DNA of 39,406 nt. Source: an uncultured Bacteroidota bacterium. GTDB taxonomy: Bacteria > Bacteroidota > Bacteroidia > Flavobacteriales > Flavobacteriaceae. The notes below the pieces were generated by a model. The model was not told where the DNA came from. It did not search any database and worked only from the letters and a program-made list of their open reading frames with translations. How positions within the stretch are numbered: position 1 is the first letter of the stretch; every line of letters starts with the position of its first letter. Location: positions 1-39,406 of the forward strand of contig CABZAD010000010.1 of assembly GCA_902523665.1 (NCBI GenBank). The letters are read 5' to 3'. A program made the position numbers and the translations under genes. Shown here piece by piece: positions 20,832 to 28,195 of this stretch.

Positions 20832-21320
20832 ATGAAGGTAATTACTTTTTTAAGACATTCTAAGTCGTCATGGGATTATGATATACTAGATATGCACAGG
20901 CCTTTAAGCTCTGTTGGAATTGAAAAAATTAAAAAAACTGCTATATCCTCAAACGATCAATTTATTTCTTCCGAAATAATATTCACTAGTTCTGCTAATA
21001 GAGCTTTATATACCTCTATTCTGCTGACAAAAAATCTATCAATTAATTATAGTAAAATAAAGATATGTGATAAATTGTATACCTTCAACTCAAGTGAAGT
21101 AATGGAATTTATTAAAACTATTGACAATATTTATTCAAACGTTGTTTTAGTTGGTCACAATCCAGCATATACAGAAATTTCAAATTATTTTTCTGAAAAT
21201 AAAATTTTAAATTTACCTACTGCAAGATGGTTTTCTTTGAAATTTAGATCTGATAATTGGTCGGATATTATAGATTTGAAGCCAATTTCTTATCTAAGTA
21301 ATTTAAAAAGTGGAGTCTAA
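20832..21320 (+). CDS. sixA: SixA-type histidine phosphatase
   Basis: A small histidine phosphatase (162 residues) with the catalytic RHSKSSW motif at residues 8-14 (His9 the nucleophile), the HRPLSSVG segment, and the second catalytic His in VGHNPAYTE. SixA of E. coli dephosphorylates phosphohistidine on proteins; the substrate here is unknown. Its position directly upstream of ppk1 and ppx, with an 11-base overlap into ppk1, suggests a link to phosphate or polyphosphate metabolism, as inference only. Ppk1 itself works through a phosphohistidine. Confidence 0.85.
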   Translation: MKVITFLRHSKSSWDYDILDMHRPLSSVGIEKIKKTAISSNDQFISSEIIFTSSANRALYTSILLTKNLSINYSKIKICDKLYTFNSSEVMEFIKTIDNIYSNVVLVGHNPAYTEISNYFSENKILNLPTARWFSLKFRSDNWSDIIDLKPISYLSNLKSGV

Positions 21321-23352
21321 ATATATAAATAGAGAGTTAAGCTGGCTTGATTTTAATGCGAGGGTTTTGCAAGAGGCATCTAATGATAATGTCCCTCTTC
21401 TAGAAAGATTAAGGTTTATAGGTATATTCTCAAATAATCTTGATGAATTTTTTCAAGTTAGATACGCTACAATAAAAAGAATTGCAGATGCAAGAGCTTC
21501 AAATAAAAATAATAAGGATAATATTGCTGCAAAAGAGCTGCTTGATAATATTACATCAAAAGTTATAAATCTACAATCTGATAGTTCAAAAATACTTGAC
21601 TCAATCGAAAAATCATTAAGGAATGAAGATATAGTTTTTATAGATGAGCTGAATGTGCCTGATTCACAAAAAGAATTTCTAAAGGATTATTTTATTAAAA
21701 AAATTAGTCCGGCACTTATTACAGTCATACTTTCAAACAATAAATATCATGATTTTAATGATAATAAAGCTTTTTTAATTATTAATTTAAAATTAAAAAA
21801 TACAAATGATATATATGCGCTTGTGGAGATTCCTCGTGACATTAGTAGATTCGTAGTTCTTCCTAAAAAAGATAATAAGCAATATATAATGTTTATTGAT
21901 GATATAATTAGATTTAACTTAGATATATTATTTAGTTTTTTCAATTATAAAAATGTCGAGGCACATATGCTAAAAATTACAAGAGATGCTGAACTGGACA
22001 TAGATGATATGGATTTATCTAAAAGTTATATAAAGAAGATTCAAGAATATGTTAATAAAAGAAAGATAAGTAACCCAGTAAGACTAGTTTATGATGAATC
22101 TATACCCGGAGAGACATTAAATTATCTTATAAAAAAAATTAGAATTACATCGCATGACAGTTTAATACCTGGTGGTAAATATCATCACAGAAGTGATTAT
22201 ATGAACTTTCCTGATTTAGGGAGAACAGATCTTTTATATCCAAAAGAAAAAGCTTTAAATATAAAAAACCTAAAAATTGAGTCTAACCTCTTAGATCAAC
22301 TGATAGTGAGAGATTTTCTAATGTATACTCCTTACCATTCATTCTCATATTTAATATCAATATTGAGACAGTCTGCAATTGATCCAACTGTAAAGTCTAT
22401 CAAAATAACTCTATACAGGCTATCTAAAAAATCGAATGTAATTAGTTGTTTGATTAACGCGGCTAAAAATGGAAAAAAAGTTTTAGTCCAGATAGAACTT
22501 CAAGCAAGATTTGATGAAGAAAATAATATAAAGGTCTCGCAAGAATTAAAAGCTGCTGGTGTTGATTTAATTTATGGGCTCAAAGGGTTGAAAGTTCACT
22601 CAAAAATTTGTCTAATTGAGAGGTCTACGAGTGATAAAAAAAGATACTATGGTTTTATCAGTACTGGAAATTTTAATGAATCAACAGCAAAAGTCTACTC
22701 GGACTTTACTCTATTTACTTCAAATCAAAAAATTTTAAAAGAAATTAATAAAGTCTTTGATTTTCTCCAGTCCAACTATAAAATTCAGAATTACAAACAT
22801 TTAATTGTCTCTCCTCACCATACCTCAGAAAAATTATTTGATTTAATTGATAATGAAATCAAAAATGTAAAAAAAGGTCTTAAAGGAGAAATTATTTTAA
22901 AATTAAATAGCTTTACCAGTTACAAATTTGTTGATAAGTTATATGAAGCAAGTAAATTAGGAGTCAAGGTTAAGTTATTTATAAGGGGAATATGTTGCCT
23001 CATACCTAATAAATTTGGGTTAAGTGAAAATATTGAGGTCAAAAGTGTAGTAGATAAATATCTTGAACACTCAAGAGTTTATGTATTTGAAAATGCAGGA
23101 GAAAAAAAAGTATACATATCGTCAGCTGATTTAATGACAAGAAATATTGAAAAACGAGTTGAAGTTGCATGCCCAATCTATCAAAAGGACATAAAAAATC
23201 AAGTAATTGAAACACTTAAAATAACAGACAACGATAATATCAAAACCAGATTAATTAATCATGAACCACAAAATAAATTTGTTGATAATTTAAATAAAAA
23301 AATAAGGTCACAATGGGAAACTTACAATTACTTTAATGATATCTTAGACTAA
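21310..23352 (+). CDS. ppk1: Polyphosphate kinase 1
   Basis: Makes inorganic polyphosphate from ATP, reversibly. The 680-residue chain begins with the conserved YINRELSWLDFNARVLQEA. The two phospholipase-D-like catalytic domains carry the autophosphorylated His430 in KVHSKICLI, the following STGNFNESTAKVYSDFTLF, and a second conserved His in LEHSRVYVFEN with the AADLMTRN-like SSADLMTRNIEKRVEV. The start is GTG, overlapping sixA by 11 bases; no ATG fits before the conserved N-terminus. ppx starts at the very next base after its stop. Length matches the family. Confidence 0.97.
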   Translation: MESKYINRELSWLDFNARVLQEASNDNVPLLERLRFIGIFSNNLDEFFQVRYATIKRIADARASNKNNKDNIAAKELLDNITSKVINLQSDSSKILDSIEKSLRNEDIVFIDELNVPDSQKEFLKDYFIKKISPALITVILSNNKYHDFNDNKAFLIINLKLKNTNDIYALVEIPRDISRFVVLPKKDNKQYIMFIDDIIRFNLDILFSFFNYKNVEAHMLKITRDAELDIDDMDLSKSYIKKIQEYVNKRKISNPVRLVYDESIPGETLNYLIKKIRITSHDSLIPGGKYHHRSDYMNFPDLGRTDLLYPKEKALNIKNLKIESNLLDQLIVRDFLMYTPYHSFSYLISILRQSAIDPTVKSIKITLYRLSKKSNVISCLINAAKNGKKVLVQIELQARFDEENNIKVSQELKAAGVDLIYGLKGLKVHSKICLIERSTSDKKRYYGFISTGNFNESTAKVYSDFTLFTSNQKILKEINKVFDFLQSNYKIQNYKHLIVSPHHTSEKLFDLIDNEIKNVKKGLKGEIILKLNSFTSYKFVDKLYEASKLGVKVKLFIRGICCLIPNKFGLSENIEVKSVVDKYLEHSRVYVFENAGEKKVYISSADLMTRNIEKRVEVACPIYQKDIKNQVIETLKITDNDNIKTRLINHEPQNKFVDNLNKKIRSQWETYNYFNDILD

Positions 23353-24249
23353 TTGAAAAAGATTGCTGCTATTGATATTGGTTCCAATGCTGTTAGAATG
23401 CTGATATGCTATGTTATACCGTCTGGAGAAGAACATATATTTCAAAAAAACTTATACCTAAGACTACCTTTAAGACTTGGGGAAGATTCTTTTAGAAATG
23501 GAATAATTTCAGAGGATAAAATTAAAACACTTTCAGAAGCACTTCTTTCATTTAAATATATAATGAAAGTTCATAAAGTTAATGAGTATCAAATTTATGC
23601 TACTTCAGCTCTTAGAGAATCAATTAATTCGTCTAGTGTGATATTAAAAGTTAAAAAAGAAACTGGTTTTAAAGTTAACTTAATAACTGGTTTAAAGGAA
23701 GCTAAAATTATTACAAAGGGAAATCAACTATCTAAGTTAGATTATAATAAAACCTACTTACATGTTGATGTAGGTGGAGGGAGCACAGAGTATTCTATCA
23801 TTAAGAAAGGAGCCAATAAGAAATCTATGTCATTTAAACTTGGAACTGTAAGGCTTTTAAATAATATAGATTTTTCTCATACTAAGAGTGAGATTAATAG
23901 TTGGTTAACCTCAAATATTGATTTCAAAGATAAAATTAAGTTATTTGCAACTGGAGGAAATATTAATAAAATTCAATCAATGTCAGGAACAAAAATTGGT
24001 AAACCAATTTCATATATTTCTATTAAAAATCTTTTGAATAAAATGTTAGAATGTGATTTCAAAGAAAGGATGATAAAATTTAATTTAAACCCCGATAGAG
24101 CTGATGTAATTATACCTGCATTAGAAATATTTATTTTAACAATGGAATCTGTTGAAGCAAATAAAATGTTTATTCCAAAAACAGGTCTTGTTGATGGAAT
24201 GGTAAAAGAAACTTTCATTAAAAATAATGGGAATAAGCTAGATCCTTAA
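23353..24249 (+). CDS. ppx: Exopolyphosphatase, Ppx/GppA family
   Basis: Actin/hexokinase-fold phosphatase that hydrolyses polyphosphate ends or pppGpp. The 298-residue protein has phosphate-1 loop AAIDIGSNAVRMLI, ATSALRES, the second loop HVDVGGGSTEYSI, and ATGGNINK. It is the short form, lacking the C-terminal HD domain of E. coli Ppx. The start is TTG, immediately after the ppk1 stop, and matches the family N-terminus MKKIAAIDIGSN. With ppk1 upstream, polyphosphate turnover is the likely role; a GppA activity cannot be excluded. Its last 12 bases overlap the end of the convergent dnaX reading frame. Confidence 0.93.
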   Translation: MKKIAAIDIGSNAVRMLICYVIPSGEEHIFQKNLYLRLPLRLGEDSFRNGIISEDKIKTLSEALLSFKYIMKVHKVNEYQIYATSALRESINSSSVILKVKKETGFKVNLITGLKEAKIITKGNQLSKLDYNKTYLHVDVGGGSTEYSIIKKGANKKSMSFKLGTVRLLNNIDFSHTKSEINSWLTSNIDFKDKIKLFATGGNINKIQSMSGTKIGKPISYISIKNLLNKMLECDFKERMIKFNLNPDRADVIIPALEIFILTMESVEANKMFIPKTGLVDGMVKETFIKNNGNKLDP

Positions 24250-24789
24250 ATTAAACTCCTCTATTAAAGAAATTATACTCTTATTACTTTCTTGAATTAT
24301 CTTAAGTTTTTCTTTACTATCAAGAAATTTCTTTTTATCTGTTTCCTCAGACAACTTTACATCAATAGAGATTGAATAATTATTTAATTCTTTAGATATA
24401 AATGCTTGTATTTTTGCCTTATAACCCTTCATTTCTTTATAATTCATTTTATTAATGGTATTGATAATAATTACATTATCATGAATAAAGGGTTGATTCA
24501 TCTTTAAAAGAGATAATATATTATTATTACCGTCCTTTTTTTCAAGTTCACAGAATTTTTTCCAGGCTATCTCAAAGTCATTATTAGTAAAATCCTCATT
24601 AGGAAAATCTAAATCCAAATCATCATTCTCATCTTCAACAGATTTTTTAAAGTTAAGACTTGCAATTGATAATGATGAAATATCTTTTATTTGAGGTTGT
24701 TTAAATAATTTACCAGAGTCTTCATCTTTAATTTGTAAAATTTCTTTTTCAATACTACTTATCAATTCCGTAGTTTTAATTAGAGACTT
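24238..24789 (-). CDS. dnaX: dnaX -1 frame: C-terminal (tau-specific) part of DNA polymerase III subunit
   Basis: About 183 codons in the -1 frame relative to the upstream dnaX frame. The sequence fits the DnaX C-terminal region of flavobacteria: an acidic linker, then DFEIAWKKFCELEKKDG, YKAKIQAFISKELNNYSISIDV and the end SKEKLKIIQESNKSIISLIEEF. This frame opens only at a TAA formed by the first bases of the A10 run, and the zero frame closes at a TAA six bases after the run, so joining must happen in between. The joined protein would have 533 residues, ordinary for a tau subunit. A TTG at 24765 could be a start, but a free C-terminal fragment has no known role. Confidence 0.8.
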   Translation of the reverse strand, partial: KSLIKTTELISSIEKEILQIKDEDSGKLFKQPQIKDISSLSIASLNFKKSVEDENDDLDLDFPNEDFTNNDFEIAWKKFCELEKKDGNNNILSLLKMNQPFIHDNVIIINTINKMNYKEMKGYKAKIQAFISKELNNYSISIDVKLSEETDKKKFLDSKEKLKIIQESNKSIISLIEEFNLRI

Positions 24790-25838
24790 TTTTTTTTAAT
24801 GCTACCTAATGACGCTATTTTCATTAAACAAAGCTCAACATGTATCCTTTTATCATTTATTTTTTGATAATTGACTAAAGTTTCATTAATTATTTCTATC
24901 ATTGAGATTAGGTCTTGATCTAATATATTTTTTGAATGTTCAATATACCTTTTACTTAATTCATTTTTATGATCTGAAAGTTCATCAAATGAATTAAGTC
25001 TGTAGACTAGTAACTCTCTTAAATGCTTTGATAATCCATTTAAAAAATATAAATCATCAAATCCTTTATTGTATATTTCATTATATAAATGAAGGATTCC
25101 AGGTATATCTTTATCATTGATTAAATCAGACAACTTAAAATATGTATTAAAGTCTAAGATATTTAAATTAGAAGTTACTCCTTCTAATGAAAGATTAGAG
25201 TCAGTAAAACTTACTAATCTATCAAATATTGACAAAGAGTCTCTGATTGATCCTTCAGATCTTTCAGCGATTAAAAATAAAGAACCATCTTCATGTTTGA
25301 TTTTTTTTTCTTTACATATTTTTAGAAGAAGCTTAGTAATGGACTTACTGTTAACTTTTTTAAAATCATATATTTGACACCTTGACAATATTGTTGGAAG
25401 AATCTTGTTTTTTTCTGTTGTTGCTAGAATAAAAACAACATGTCCGGGTGGTTCCTCTAGGGATTTAAGAAATGCATTAAATGCTTGGTTTGAAAGCATA
25501 TGAACTTCATCAATAATATAGACTTTATATCTGCCTTTCTGAGGTGGAATCCTAATTTGATCAGTAATATTCCTTATATCTTCAACTGAGTTATTTGATG
25601 CTGCATCTAATTCAAAAATATTGTACTCAAAGTCTTCCTCTAAATTATTTATTGTCTTCGCTAGTATTCTTGCGCATGATGTTTTTCCAACTCCTCTGGG
25701 GCCACAAAAGAGAAGAGCTTGGGGAATATTATCTTTCTTTATTGCATTACTAAGGGTTTTTACAATTGCATCTTGACCTATCATTTCCTCAAAGTTTTTA
25801 GGTCTATATTCTGAAGCAGAAGAATTTGAACTCATCAT
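24780..25838 (-). CDS. dnaX: DNA polymerase III gamma-like subunit (zero frame of dnaX)
   Basis: AAA+ motor of the replicative clamp loader. In the zero frame the product is 352 residues: Walker A CGPRGVGKTSCARI (about 44-57), Walker B YIIDEVHMLS, sensor 1 ILATTEKNK, the arginine finger in LSRCQI and the sensor 2 region GSIRDSLS, then the collar domain to about 345. It ends just after the collar, in KKKSL, the place where gamma forms end. The four-cysteine zinc module seen in E. coli DnaX is missing: only about fifteen residues lie between ARILAKTI and FELDAASNNS. The promoter -7 box is five bases upstream of the ATG. Continuation as tau needs a -1 shift in the A10 run. Confidence 0.93.
   Translation of the reverse strand: MMSSNSSASEYRPKNFEEMIGQDAIVKTLSNAIKKDNIPQALLFCGPRGVGKTSCARILAKTINNLEEDFEYNIFELDAASNNSVEDIRNITDQIRIPPQKGRYKVYIIDEVHMLSNQAFNAFLKSLEEPPGHVVFILATTEKNKILPTILSRCQIYDFKKVNSKSITKLLLKICKEKKIKHEDGSLFLIAERSEGSIRDSLSIFDRLVSFTDSNLSLEGVTSNLNILDFNTYFKLSDLINDKDIPGILHLYNEIYNKGFDDLYFLNGLSKHLRELLVYRLNSFDELSDHKNELSKRYIEHSKNILDQDLISMIEIINETLVNYQKINDKRIHVELCLMKIASLGSIKKKSL
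24788..24797 (-). other. dnaX: A10 slippery run in dnaX: probable programmed frameshift or transcriptional slippage site
   Basis: Ten consecutive A on the coding strand, read in zero frame as ATT AAA AAA AAA AGT CTC TAA. A -1 shift gives AAA AAG TCT CTA ATT and continues into the 175-residue C-terminal frame. One extra A in the transcript would have the same effect. There is an AGG seven bases upstream of the run, but I see no convincing downstream stem-loop, which favours transcriptional slippage as in Thermus dnaX over the E. coli ribosomal mechanism. Confidence 0.7.
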
Positions 25839-25921: not shown

Positions 25922-25923
25922 TT

Positions 25924-26208
25924 GTGCAAGCCATCTTATCGCTGATTTTTCAGAGGAAAGTCCGGACACCAACGAGCAATGCAGCGGGTAATACCCGTCG
26001 TCTGTAATGGATAGGAATAGTGCAACAGAAAGTATGTACAGGTAATGCTGTAGTGGAATCTTGTAAACTCTGCATGGTGAAACGCCAAGTATATCTACAA
26101 CTTAAAACTGCTCGTTTTATGTAGAAGGGTAGGCGGTTTGAGTGTAATAGTAATATTACATCTAGATAAATGATAAGACTAGACAGAATCCGGCTTACAG
26201 GCTTGCTT
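25924..26208 (+). ncRNA. rnpB: RNase P RNA, type A
   Basis: Catalytic RNA that matures tRNA 5' ends. Conserved cores are clear: GAGGAAAGTCCGGAC (25953-25967), GGTGAAACG (26076-26084) and ACAGAATCCGGCTTAC (26183-26198), the last two in their usual order and the first and last forming P4. The ends pair as P1: GCAAGCC (25926-25932) with GGCTTGC (26200-26206). A run of seven T follows P1 and probably terminates transcription. The length, about 283 bases, is short for a type A RNA but within a reduced range. The 3' end overlaps the last codons of convergent rsmD. Exact ends are inferred from P1. Confidence 0.95.
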
Positions 26209-26740
26209 TTTTTATAAAGCTTAATATTGAGCCTCCATATTTTCTTTCTTCAATATTGTTGTATTTTTCCGCTAAAGAAATATTTGAACTATGTTCAATA
26301 ATAATTTGACCATTATTTAAAAGAATATCTCTTTGCTTTATTATATTCAATAATTCAAAATACTGATCTTTTAAAAATAAGTACGGTGGATCTGCAAAAA
26401 TTATATCAAAATTTTCTTCATTTTTTATTAAAAAATCAATGTAGTCTTTTTTTTTAGTAATAATATCAAATCCATGTTTAACAGAAGTTTCTTTTATAAA
26501 TTTTACACATTTTAAATTTTTATCAACAGAAATTATTTTTTTTGCTCCTCTAGATGCAAACTCAAAAGATATGTTCCCTGTACCTGCAAATAAATCTAAA
26601 ACTCTTATTTCATCAATTTTGAATCTGTTAATTAATATATTAAAAAGAGATTCTTTTAATTTATCGGTGGTTGGCCTGCTTGGGAGATCTTTAGGCGCTC
26701 TAATAGATAAACTCTTTTTACTTCCTGATATTATTCTCAT
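26195..26740 (-). CDS. rsmD: 16S rRNA (guanine-966 N2) methyltransferase, RsmD family
   Basis: SAM-dependent methyltransferase for 16S rRNA. The 181-residue chain starts MRIISGSKKS, with the SAM-binding VLDLFAGTGNISFEFASRGAKK-type motif I and the catalytic ADPPY (NPPY-type) motif in DIIFADPPYLF. RPTTDKLKESLFNIL is the conserved N-terminal signature. It starts inside the last 23 bases of the DUF3822 gene, so it is the last gene of that unit. Its final codons (Ala-Ser-Leu-stop) are complementary to the 3' strand of the rnpB P1 helix, an unusual overlap with a structural RNA. Confidence 0.93.
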   Translation of the reverse strand: MRIISGSKKSLSIRAPKDLPSRPTTDKLKESLFNILINRFKIDEIRVLDLFAGTGNISFEFASRGAKKIISVDKNLKCVKFIKETSVKHGFDIITKKKDYIDFLIKNEENFDIIFADPPYLFLKDQYFELLNIIKQRDILLNNGQIIIEHSSNISLAEKYNNIEERKYGGSILSFIKKASL

Positions 26741-27467
26741 TTAAAATTGAAAAAGATTGTGATTCATAACTTACAAGTGAATTAATATTTTCTTCAATAA
26801 AGTCGATTTTAGAATATTTTGATACTAAATCATAAAATTTATCAAATCTTTCATATTTTCCAAGAAATATAATTTTATTTGATTTAATTGAAGCATTATA
26901 ATTTTTTAGCACAAAAAATGTATAATATAAAAACTCATTTTCATCATTAATATTAAATGAATTAAAGAAGACAAATTTATTATTGTTAAATACGATTACC
27001 TCAAATGAAGTATCGCTTAAGTTTATGAAAAATGAATACCCGTCAGAATTATTTAATTGTCCAATTAAATAGTTGTATAATTGAGTAAAATAATTAGTAT
27101 GATAATTTTTTTTATCATTATTATTAAGAATTTGAGATAAGTTTTCGTTCTTTGAATATACAATAGTCATTTTTTTGTCATTAGAAATATCTTTGCCAAT
27201 ACTTCTTGATATTTTAGTATTAGTTTCTAGATATTTAGCTTTAATACTTTTATCATAGTATTTTGACGGTATTATTGATGGAGGGGAATTAAAATGAGTT
27301 ATATTTATTGATTTAATTGAATCTTTATTCAGAATATTAGTAACCAATTTAAGTTTATTCTTGTCAGAATATGATGATGAGAAACATTCATTTAATGAAC
27401 TTAAATGAAAGAAATTTTCAAATTGATAAATTGATGCTTTGCTAATTTTAGTTTTTATTTTTTGCAT
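26718..27467 (-). CDS. DUF3822 family protein (predicted actin-like fold)
   Basis: A 249-residue protein of unknown function, restricted as far as I know to Bacteroidota. It matches the DUF3822 pattern, for which an actin-like ATPase fold has been reported from a Bacteroides structure (from memory). Visible features: basic N-terminus KIKTKISKASIYQF, YSFFINLSDTSFEVIVFNNNKFVFFNSFNI in the middle (beta-hairpin like an actin phosphate loop region), and NASIKSNKIIFLGKYERFDKFYD. I chose the ATG at 27467, overlapping the upstream gene by 20 bases, over one 36 bases further up. It lies between a membrane protein gene and rsmD. No catalytic motif is certain. Confidence 0.75.
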   Translation of the reverse strand: MQKIKTKISKASIYQFENFFHLSSLNECFSSSYSDKNKLKLVTNILNKDSIKSINITHFNSPPSIIPSKYYDKSIKAKYLETNTKISRSIGKDISNDKKMTIVYSKNENLSQILNNNDKKNYHTNYFTQLYNYLIGQLNNSDGYSFFINLSDTSFEVIVFNNNKFVFFNSFNINDENEFLYYTFFVLKNYNASIKSNKIIFLGKYERFDKFYDLVSKYSKIDFIEENINSLVSYESQSFSILNENNIRK

Positions 27468-28104
27468 CAAAGATTGTAGGCCAATTCCCACTTGTACTAA
27501 CATCAGTCATTGATCCTAAAATAATTTCAGGTCCATTGACACCATCAACTGAGATAACTTTATTCTCTTGATCTAGTAAGTCTTTGTTCTGATCAAAAAG
27601 TACAATGTCTTTTTTAACTTTTACTTCAAATACTGGTACTTGATACCCATTCTTATCAATAATGTCAGCCTTAATGGAAAATTTTGAGTCAGTACCGTCA
27701 ATTGGAACTTTAGCCATCATTTTATAGGATTCATTTTTTCCAAATAGAGAGTCTTTGACAGAGACAAATCCTAATGTGTCAACTATTTCAACTTCTTTTA
27801 ACATATCAATTCTGTAGGTTCTATTATATTCTAAATATGACGAGTCTCTCTTTTCAACTAATGTAAAAATACCATTGTCAATAAAACTAACTAAGCTATC
27901 AAAATTATTTGCATAAAAACCATTAACATCTTTATGAGCAATTTGAGCTGTCCTAATATCTTTAAGTCTGTCAATCACTTTAGTATATCTATCGTTTTTT
28001 ACTTGATTAAACTTTATTGGTCCATTAATTGAACTGTATATCTGTGAAGCAAAAAATATTGATAAAATCCATAAAAATAATTCTAAAGCACGTTTTTTAT
28101 TCAT
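27448..28104 (-). CDS. Conserved membrane-anchored protein with pilin-like N-terminus, function unknown
   Basis: A 218-residue protein with a single hydrophobic segment at about 9-27 (LFLWILSIFFASQIYSS) and the rest outside the cytoplasm or periplasmic. After the helix, RLKDIRTAQIAHKDVNGFYANNFDSL looks like the helix-to-loop region of type IV pilins and pseudopilins, where an AxxAYKxxNGxY pattern is usual. The prepilin-peptidase Gly-Phe-x4-Glu motif is absent, so it is not a processed pilin. I recognise it only as a protein found upstream of DUF3822 in flavobacteria. It heads a unit with DUF3822 and rsmD, behind a good promoter box. Confidence 0.7.
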   Translation of the reverse strand: MNKKRALELFLWILSIFFASQIYSSINGPIKFNQVKNDRYTKVIDRLKDIRTAQIAHKDVNGFYANNFDSLVSFIDNGIFTLVEKRDSSYLEYNRTYRIDMLKEVEIVDTLGFVSVKDSLFGKNESYKMMAKVPIDGTDSKFSIKADIIDKNGYQVPVFEVKVKKDIVLFDQNKDLLDQENKVISVDGVNGPEIILGSMTDVSTSGNWPTIFDAKNKN

Positions 28105-28135: not shown

Positions 28136-28195
28136 CAATTTTTTTTTTTTCGTTAAACAATATATAAATGAATTATATTAGAAAAATATTTACAA

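Follow-up and report, generated by a model that had tools for sequence, protein, structure and literature searches.

The window analysed here is a stretch of 39,406 nucleotides from an uncultured member of the Flavobacteriaceae. It carries a dnaX gene whose two parts lie in different reading frames, and this raises the question of whether the gene is damaged or is built to yield more than one product. The frames meet on the minus strand, within the junction sequence ATT AAA AAA AAA AGT CTC TAA. The features concerned are the following.

24780..25838, minus strand: dnaX zero frame, clamp-loader core and collar, gamma product of 352 aa (ORF; TIGR02397, Pfam, NCBIfam)
24788..24797, minus strand: A10 run, proposed slip site and sole junction of both frames (sequence)
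24796..24798, minus strand: TAA stop of the -1 frame, overlapping the 5' end of the A10 run (sequence)
24238..24795, minus strand: C-terminal part specific to tau, in the -1 frame, extending 182 codons beyond the run (PRK14971; dN/dS)
24776..24782, minus strand: TAATTAA double stop, closing both non-tau frames (form T[AG]ATTAA, in 19/22 genus genes)

Anatomy of the split gene

The zero-frame product scored 361 bits over the TIGR02397 cut-off and ends, at 352 aa, in IKKKSL followed by a stop. The first two A of the A10 run are at the same time the last two bases of the TAA that shuts the -1 frame. These details, together with the run as the only place where the two frames can be joined, are just as an earlier reading of the sequence had described them (referred to here as the original prediction). 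The DnaX profile PRK14971 (NCBIfam) matched the zero-frame product over profile positions 7-364 and the -1 product over positions 477-612 (E 3.8e-15), which confirmed that the -1 frame encodes a DnaX C-terminus. Either half on its own falls below the whole-protein cut-off of this profile; because both match it, we treat the two ORFs as parts of one dnaX gene. A -1 shift inside the run would give a tau of 533 aa, and the count of 350 residues, one lysine and 182 residues agrees with the length that had been predicted. The anatomy of the ORFs also supports the assignment of gamma to the zero frame and of tau to the -1 frame.

When the tail of the window was compared with those of six relatives from the genus (Nei-Gojobori), dN was 0.09-0.21 and dS was 0.35-1.23. 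As dN is well below dS, the tail is kept as protein and is under purifying selection. Past the run, stops in the two non-tau frames follow at 2 and 3 codons. The zero frame contains the heptamer A_AAA_AAA, and the heptamer of E. coli, A_AAA_AAG, is absent from it.

The dnaX gene lies divergent from an RNase P RNA gene at 25923-26213 on the plus strand (Rfam RF00010, 190 bits), with 84 nt between this gene and the dnaX start. At its other end, polyphosphate kinase and an exopolyphosphatase-like ORF (21310-24249, plus strand) are oriented towards dnaX, and the end of the exopolyphosphatase-like ORF overlaps the end of the dnaX tail by 12 nt (24238-24249).

Conservation of the A run

A dnaX-like match was found in all 100 relatives searched, a few of them only weak or partial. 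The dnaX loci of relatives were parsed by tblastn, and the junction was read in 206 genomes, made up of 22 of 25 for the genus of the window, 46 of 46 for the family, 35 of 39 for the order, 16 of 16 for the class and 87 of 89 for the phylum. Assemblies with no full dnaX core were left out (G008, G013, G015, G063, G083, G094, G097, G117 and G145). With the criterion of at least nine A within -15 to +150 nt of the collar end, the run was present in 22/22 genus, 45/46 family, 31/35 order, 15/16 class and 57/87 phylum genomes, or 170 of 206 in total. An additional 43 of 43 named loci carried a run of at least nine A in a slightly wider window; these come partly from duplicate genomes and stand outside the counts. 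The run counts include 29 loci added later, which were left out of the stop, tree and hairpin tests described below. In three further genomes, G039, G074 and G138, the run is present but the contig stops within the gene, so these are not among the 151 genes with a run and a readable tail. Within these 151, runs of 9, 10, 11, 12 and 13 A occurred in 27, 92, 28, 3 and 1 genes, respectively.

The run is concentrated at the junction. For 177 dnaX genes, runs of at least nine A were found in 154 junction windows (29 kb in total), whereas the 183 kb of core sequence in the same genes held 6 such runs and the 63 kb of tail sequence 3. It also occurs despite high G+C content, namely in 23 of 37 genes with GC of at least 0.5 and in 20 of 20 genes of one family (f29) with GC of 0.47-0.64. 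Redrawing synonymous codons according to the usage of the individual gene, without changing the protein, led us to expect a run in 33 of the 91 genes with tau in frame 0, a contrast that is inflated, since only run-bearing genes were used, and also shrunk, since the lysines held fixed may themselves be due to the run.

These comparisons bear on the simplest explanation of the split, that an error of sequencing or assembly produced the A10, or that dnaX has decayed in this strain. Homopolymers are error-prone, and the genome consists of 52 contigs and is about 81% complete. The zero frame nevertheless ends at residue 352 in twelve other genomes of the genus, with A10 or A11 (and at 355 in one more), and single-contig genomes of the family and order (G047, G049, G062, G077 and G088) are split at the run too. 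With the purifying selection on the tail added to this, error or decay is extremely improbable.

A10 runs elsewhere as controls

The genome contains 22 distinct A runs of at least ten in 1.13 Mb. The 20 outside the window comprise 9 inside intact sense ORFs, 4 near start codons, 1 antisense and 6 between ORFs, and no evident dnaX-like split was found at any of them (ORFs of about 50 or more codons, in stretches of 2.5-3.1 kb). Inside the window, an A12 run at 28139-28150 on the minus strand lies about 35 nt upstream of the start of the ORF 27448-28104 and outside any listed ORF of at least 100 aa.

Three comparison genes, which from reading their proteins we take to be rsmI, murD and an amidase-like gene, were followed through relatives. 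The A10 of rsmI was kept in 1 of the 19 genus sequences covering it; two other sequences had a run of 9 A, in one case next to the position rather than at it. The A10 of the amidase-like gene was kept in 1 of 6. The murD run (L156 458-1786 in the same genome; L247-L269) was A10 in 22 of the 23 genus sequences covering it, always in the same frame. Outside the genus, no run above 6 was found there in 29 of 29 sequences, the best-scoring 29 of 59 other family genomes, so that within the family the murD run was present in 0/29 and the dnaX run in 45/46. In the single-contig genome G049 (L327), only the C-terminal part of the protein, from about residue 257, was detected at the murD place. Because an A10 occurs in nine intact ORFs, and because the murD run is kept without any change of frame, an A10 alone proves no programmed site.

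Drift of the tau frame

In dnaX, the frame of the tail changes around the run. Among the 151 genes, tau is encoded in frame 0, -1 and +1 in 91, 56 and 4 cases, and in 101, 62 and 4 of 167 once the later loci are added. On a tree of dnaX cores, built from sequence that excludes the junction, the frame must have changed at least 29 times, compared with an average of 49 when frame labels are shuffled. The frame is not random between neighbors; it is inherited for a while and then flips. From genus to class the tree needs at least 21 changes of frame as against at least 4 changes in the presence of the run. Within the genus at least 5 frame changes are needed, 3 of them forced by well-supported branches, and the run is A10-A12 in 22 of 22 genes, which is the comparison of run length and frame in related genomes that the original prediction had proposed. 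The same prediction had named, as a finding that would refute it, a close relative whose single frame is uninterrupted and lacks a homopolymer. No such relative was found among the genus genomes read: in 8 of the 22, core and tail are fused, with tau in frame 0, and all 8 have A10-A12. That relatives keep the run while the frame around it changes makes a built-in slip site, by which one gene could yield a short and a long protein, the most likely explanation of the run.

The four genes with tau in +1 are L104, L107, L109 and L158, one of them in the single-contig genome G049, and a hairpin scoring at least 12 stands beside the run in three. Hairpins may favor the loss of an A in these +1 genes, but this is only an idea, as the base rate of hairpins in the family is high.

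The same data bear on the proposal that the tail is started separately, or that the length of the run varies in the DNA of the population (phase variation). An A10 is generally prone to replication slippage, and a TTG lies in the tail frame of the window 22 nt past the run; in addition, one genome of the order, of 0.3 Mb, encodes a dnaX of 345 aa, which is gamma length, without a tail (G075, L134). Across the genus, however, the distance from the run to the first start codon in the tail frame varies between 3 and 298 nt, so there is no conserved start, and in the 8 fused genomes the tail simply continues the core. The split state is common to whole sub-clades, unlike a switch within a population. 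We therefore consider either form of this proposal very unlikely.

Closure of the wrong frames

If slippage produced transcripts of all three frames, both frames that do not lead to tau would be expected to end soon after the run, whereas ribosomal -1 shifting would need just one closed frame. Both wrong frames are closed within 8 codons in 132 of the 151 genes, and this holds for tau in frame 0, -1 and +1 in 78/91, 50/56 and 4/4, respectively. In the frame-0 and -1 groups, the closure of each frame exceeded all 5,000 draws from tail positions. In the genus, all 22 genes close both wrong frames within 5 codons, and in 19 of these the seven-base double stop T[AG]ATTAA lies shortly past the run.

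RNA structure near the run

The original prediction had seen no stem-loop downstream of the run in the window, and folding agrees (z = -0.9). Across 151 genes we looked for a general downstream structure and found none; folding was near chance (mean z -0.3), with a slight excess of stable stretches (z < -2 in 11.9%, as against 5.3% in a control stretch).

Upstream of the run, a hairpin abuts it in 33 of 44 Flavobacteriaceae genes outside the genus, where about 1 was expected (counting stems that score at least 14 and end, on the 3' side, no more than 3 nt from the run). It was found in 4/29 order, 2/15 class and 4/41 phylum genes and in 0 of 21 genes of the window's own genus, and we accordingly rejected it as part of the window's own device. 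Among 24 distinct family sequences with the commonest spacing, the eight-pair stem was 82.8% paired, and sliding it reduced this to 34-55%. Seven cells of the stem changed on both sides, a number reached by 0 of 500 shuffles; pairs with a double change numbered 3, which 95 of 500 shuffles reached, and RNAalifold predicted no structure on the same 24 sequences. The family hairpin is likely to be real; many of the 33 genes are near relatives.

Junctions without the run

In the order, the four exceptions are G075, mentioned above, G086 and G095, these three being genomes of 0.3-0.6 Mb, and G079. G086 (L329) and G095 (L330) have no run and one continuous dnaX frame. G079 (L126) also lacks the run; its zero frame reads CCA AAA AAG TAG, that is, A_AAA_AAG-TAG, with tau in -1, and a 14-bp hairpin begins 6 nt downstream of the junction (z -5.4). 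By its sequence, this signal is of the E. coli kind, even with tau in -1, and the lineage has apparently switched to ribosomal shifting. From this one assembly it would seem that, in this order, either way of shifting can take the place of the other.

The one exception in the family, G044 (L087), has a split dnaX with a zero frame of GAA AAG TAA and tau in -1; there was no clear stimulator at its junction (z -1.05), and the split may reflect a faulty assembly or a site of a different type. In the class, G162 is the exception, with A7. In the phylum, tau is encoded in one frame in 29 of the 30 exceptions, and the remaining one runs into the end of its contig; they are mostly GC-rich, with three at GC 0.31-0.38.

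Proposed slippage by the polymerase or by the ribosome

Two ways of reading through the run have to be weighed. In programmed -1 ribosomal frameshifting, the polymerase would copy the run faithfully and tRNA-Lys would slip on A_AAA_AAA to give tau. A_AAA_AAA stands in the zero frame at every one of the 151 sites, which makes -1 ribosomal shifting possible, and 35 of them end in A_AAA_AAG. Tau is far more common in -1 than in +1 (56 versus 4 of 151), stable downstream stretches are somewhat more common than in the control, and the heptamer and hairpin of G079 make the mechanism plausible in the same order. Against this, a general downstream structure is lacking, and runs are 9-13 A long where a heptamer needs just 7. 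The four genes with tau in +1 are out of reach of one -1 ribosomal shift. The frame that would not need closing under -1 shifting is closed all the same in 79 of 91 frame-0 genes, where about 36 were expected. Ribosomal shifting at this locus is, in our view, unlikely.

The comparisons of run, frame and stops favor polymerase slippage over ribosomal shifting, as had been predicted, and dnaX in the window probably carries a programmed site of transcriptional slippage by RNA polymerase. We infer from these comparisons the slippage itself, RNA polymerase as its agent and the ratio of the products. In the proposed mechanism, RNA polymerase would slip on the A10 and produce transcripts with differing numbers of A. 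A faithful A10 transcript would yield gamma (352 aa), and one that had gained a single A, or lost two, would join the frames and yield tau (533 aa). The third frame would be stopped within a few codons and give another gamma-like product. As slippage would fill all three frames, the encoded frame would itself be unselected and would drift among relatives, while selection would hold the run of at least nine A and the stops.

We lean towards a wider reading, namely that dnaX genes across much of the phylum share a slippage cassette indifferent to the frame, consisting of A9-13, the stops in both wrong frames and, in Flavobacteriaceae, the hairpin of the nascent RNA, and that selection holds this cassette as the frame drifts between 0, -1 and, rarely, +1. 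The 91 : 56 : 4 ranking of frames may reflect transcripts that become scarcer as the number of extra A rises from 0 to 1 to 2. This wider pattern, a conserved slip site with a drifting frame, is a more interesting result than the split in the window. If it is true, an essential replication gene in much of the phylum is read correctly only through an imprecise polymerase, and gene prediction will wrongly report many sound dnaX genes as truncated or broken. The relatives, which differ in frame (0, -1 and +1) and in whether they have the hairpin, and one of which has apparently switched to the ribosome, would also form a natural series in which to study the gamma to tau ratio, and one that bears on why both gamma and tau are kept.

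Comparison with known systems

Among the titles listed by a search of the literature, none dealt with conservation of the run irrespective of frame or with a hairpin in dnaX, but the search covered subscription journals and supplements thinly and is weak evidence of novelty. The original prediction knew of no such arrangement described in flavobacteria, and the view that the arrangement is undescribed is not supported. In its account of dnaX, Antonov 2013 (PMC3711429) reports 17 split dnaX genes from 12 genera with a -1 change for tau, nine of them with 10 A's, and infers transcriptional realignment for them; this kind of gene is therefore already known. As in the window, there are two ORFs at a poly-A tract, with the core and collar in one frame and the tail in another, joined by a -1 shift. 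That account appears to treat split genes alone, whereas here the run is kept whether the gene is split or unsplit. The reversed arrangement is repeated elsewhere as one found in fewer bacteria (PMC5009743).

E. coli dnaX has tau as its zero-frame product and gamma as the product of the shift; its signals are A_AAA_AAG, an element resembling a Shine-Dalgarno sequence and a stem-loop downstream (PMC3711429, PMC5009743). Like it, the dnaX of the window has a slippery heptamer in the zero frame and would make both gamma and tau at a site rich in A, and it differs in lacking the stem-loop downstream. The original prediction had called the arrangement the reverse of E. coli; this is right for the layout in the window but says little here, because the tau frame flips repeatedly among relatives and the run stays.

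An RNA hairpin directly 5' of a slip run has been described for IS1447 (PMC6211511) and for a Roseiflexus insertion sequence (PMC5009743), and this is the layout shared by the 33 of 44 other Flavobacteriaceae dnaX genes and by none of the 21 in the window's genus. In Blochmannia, the dnaX frame is interrupted at a poly-A tract and slippage has been proposed (PMC3017870). As presented in that report, this frameshift lies downstream of the gamma/tau site and is viewed as corrected damage, not as a two-product device.

Another known system is the dnaX gene of Thermus thermophilus, in which an A9 run gives transcripts of mixed length, both other frames are stopped and gamma and tau are made (PMC1088944, PMC5009743). 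Like it, the window has a run of at least nine A at the gamma/tau junction and early stops in both non-tau frames. Tau is the zero frame in Thermus, unlike in the window, where it lies in -1, and 91 of the 151 genes studied here have the Thermus layout. By analogy with this system, the dnaX gene of the window would work like that of Thermus, but with a split layout.
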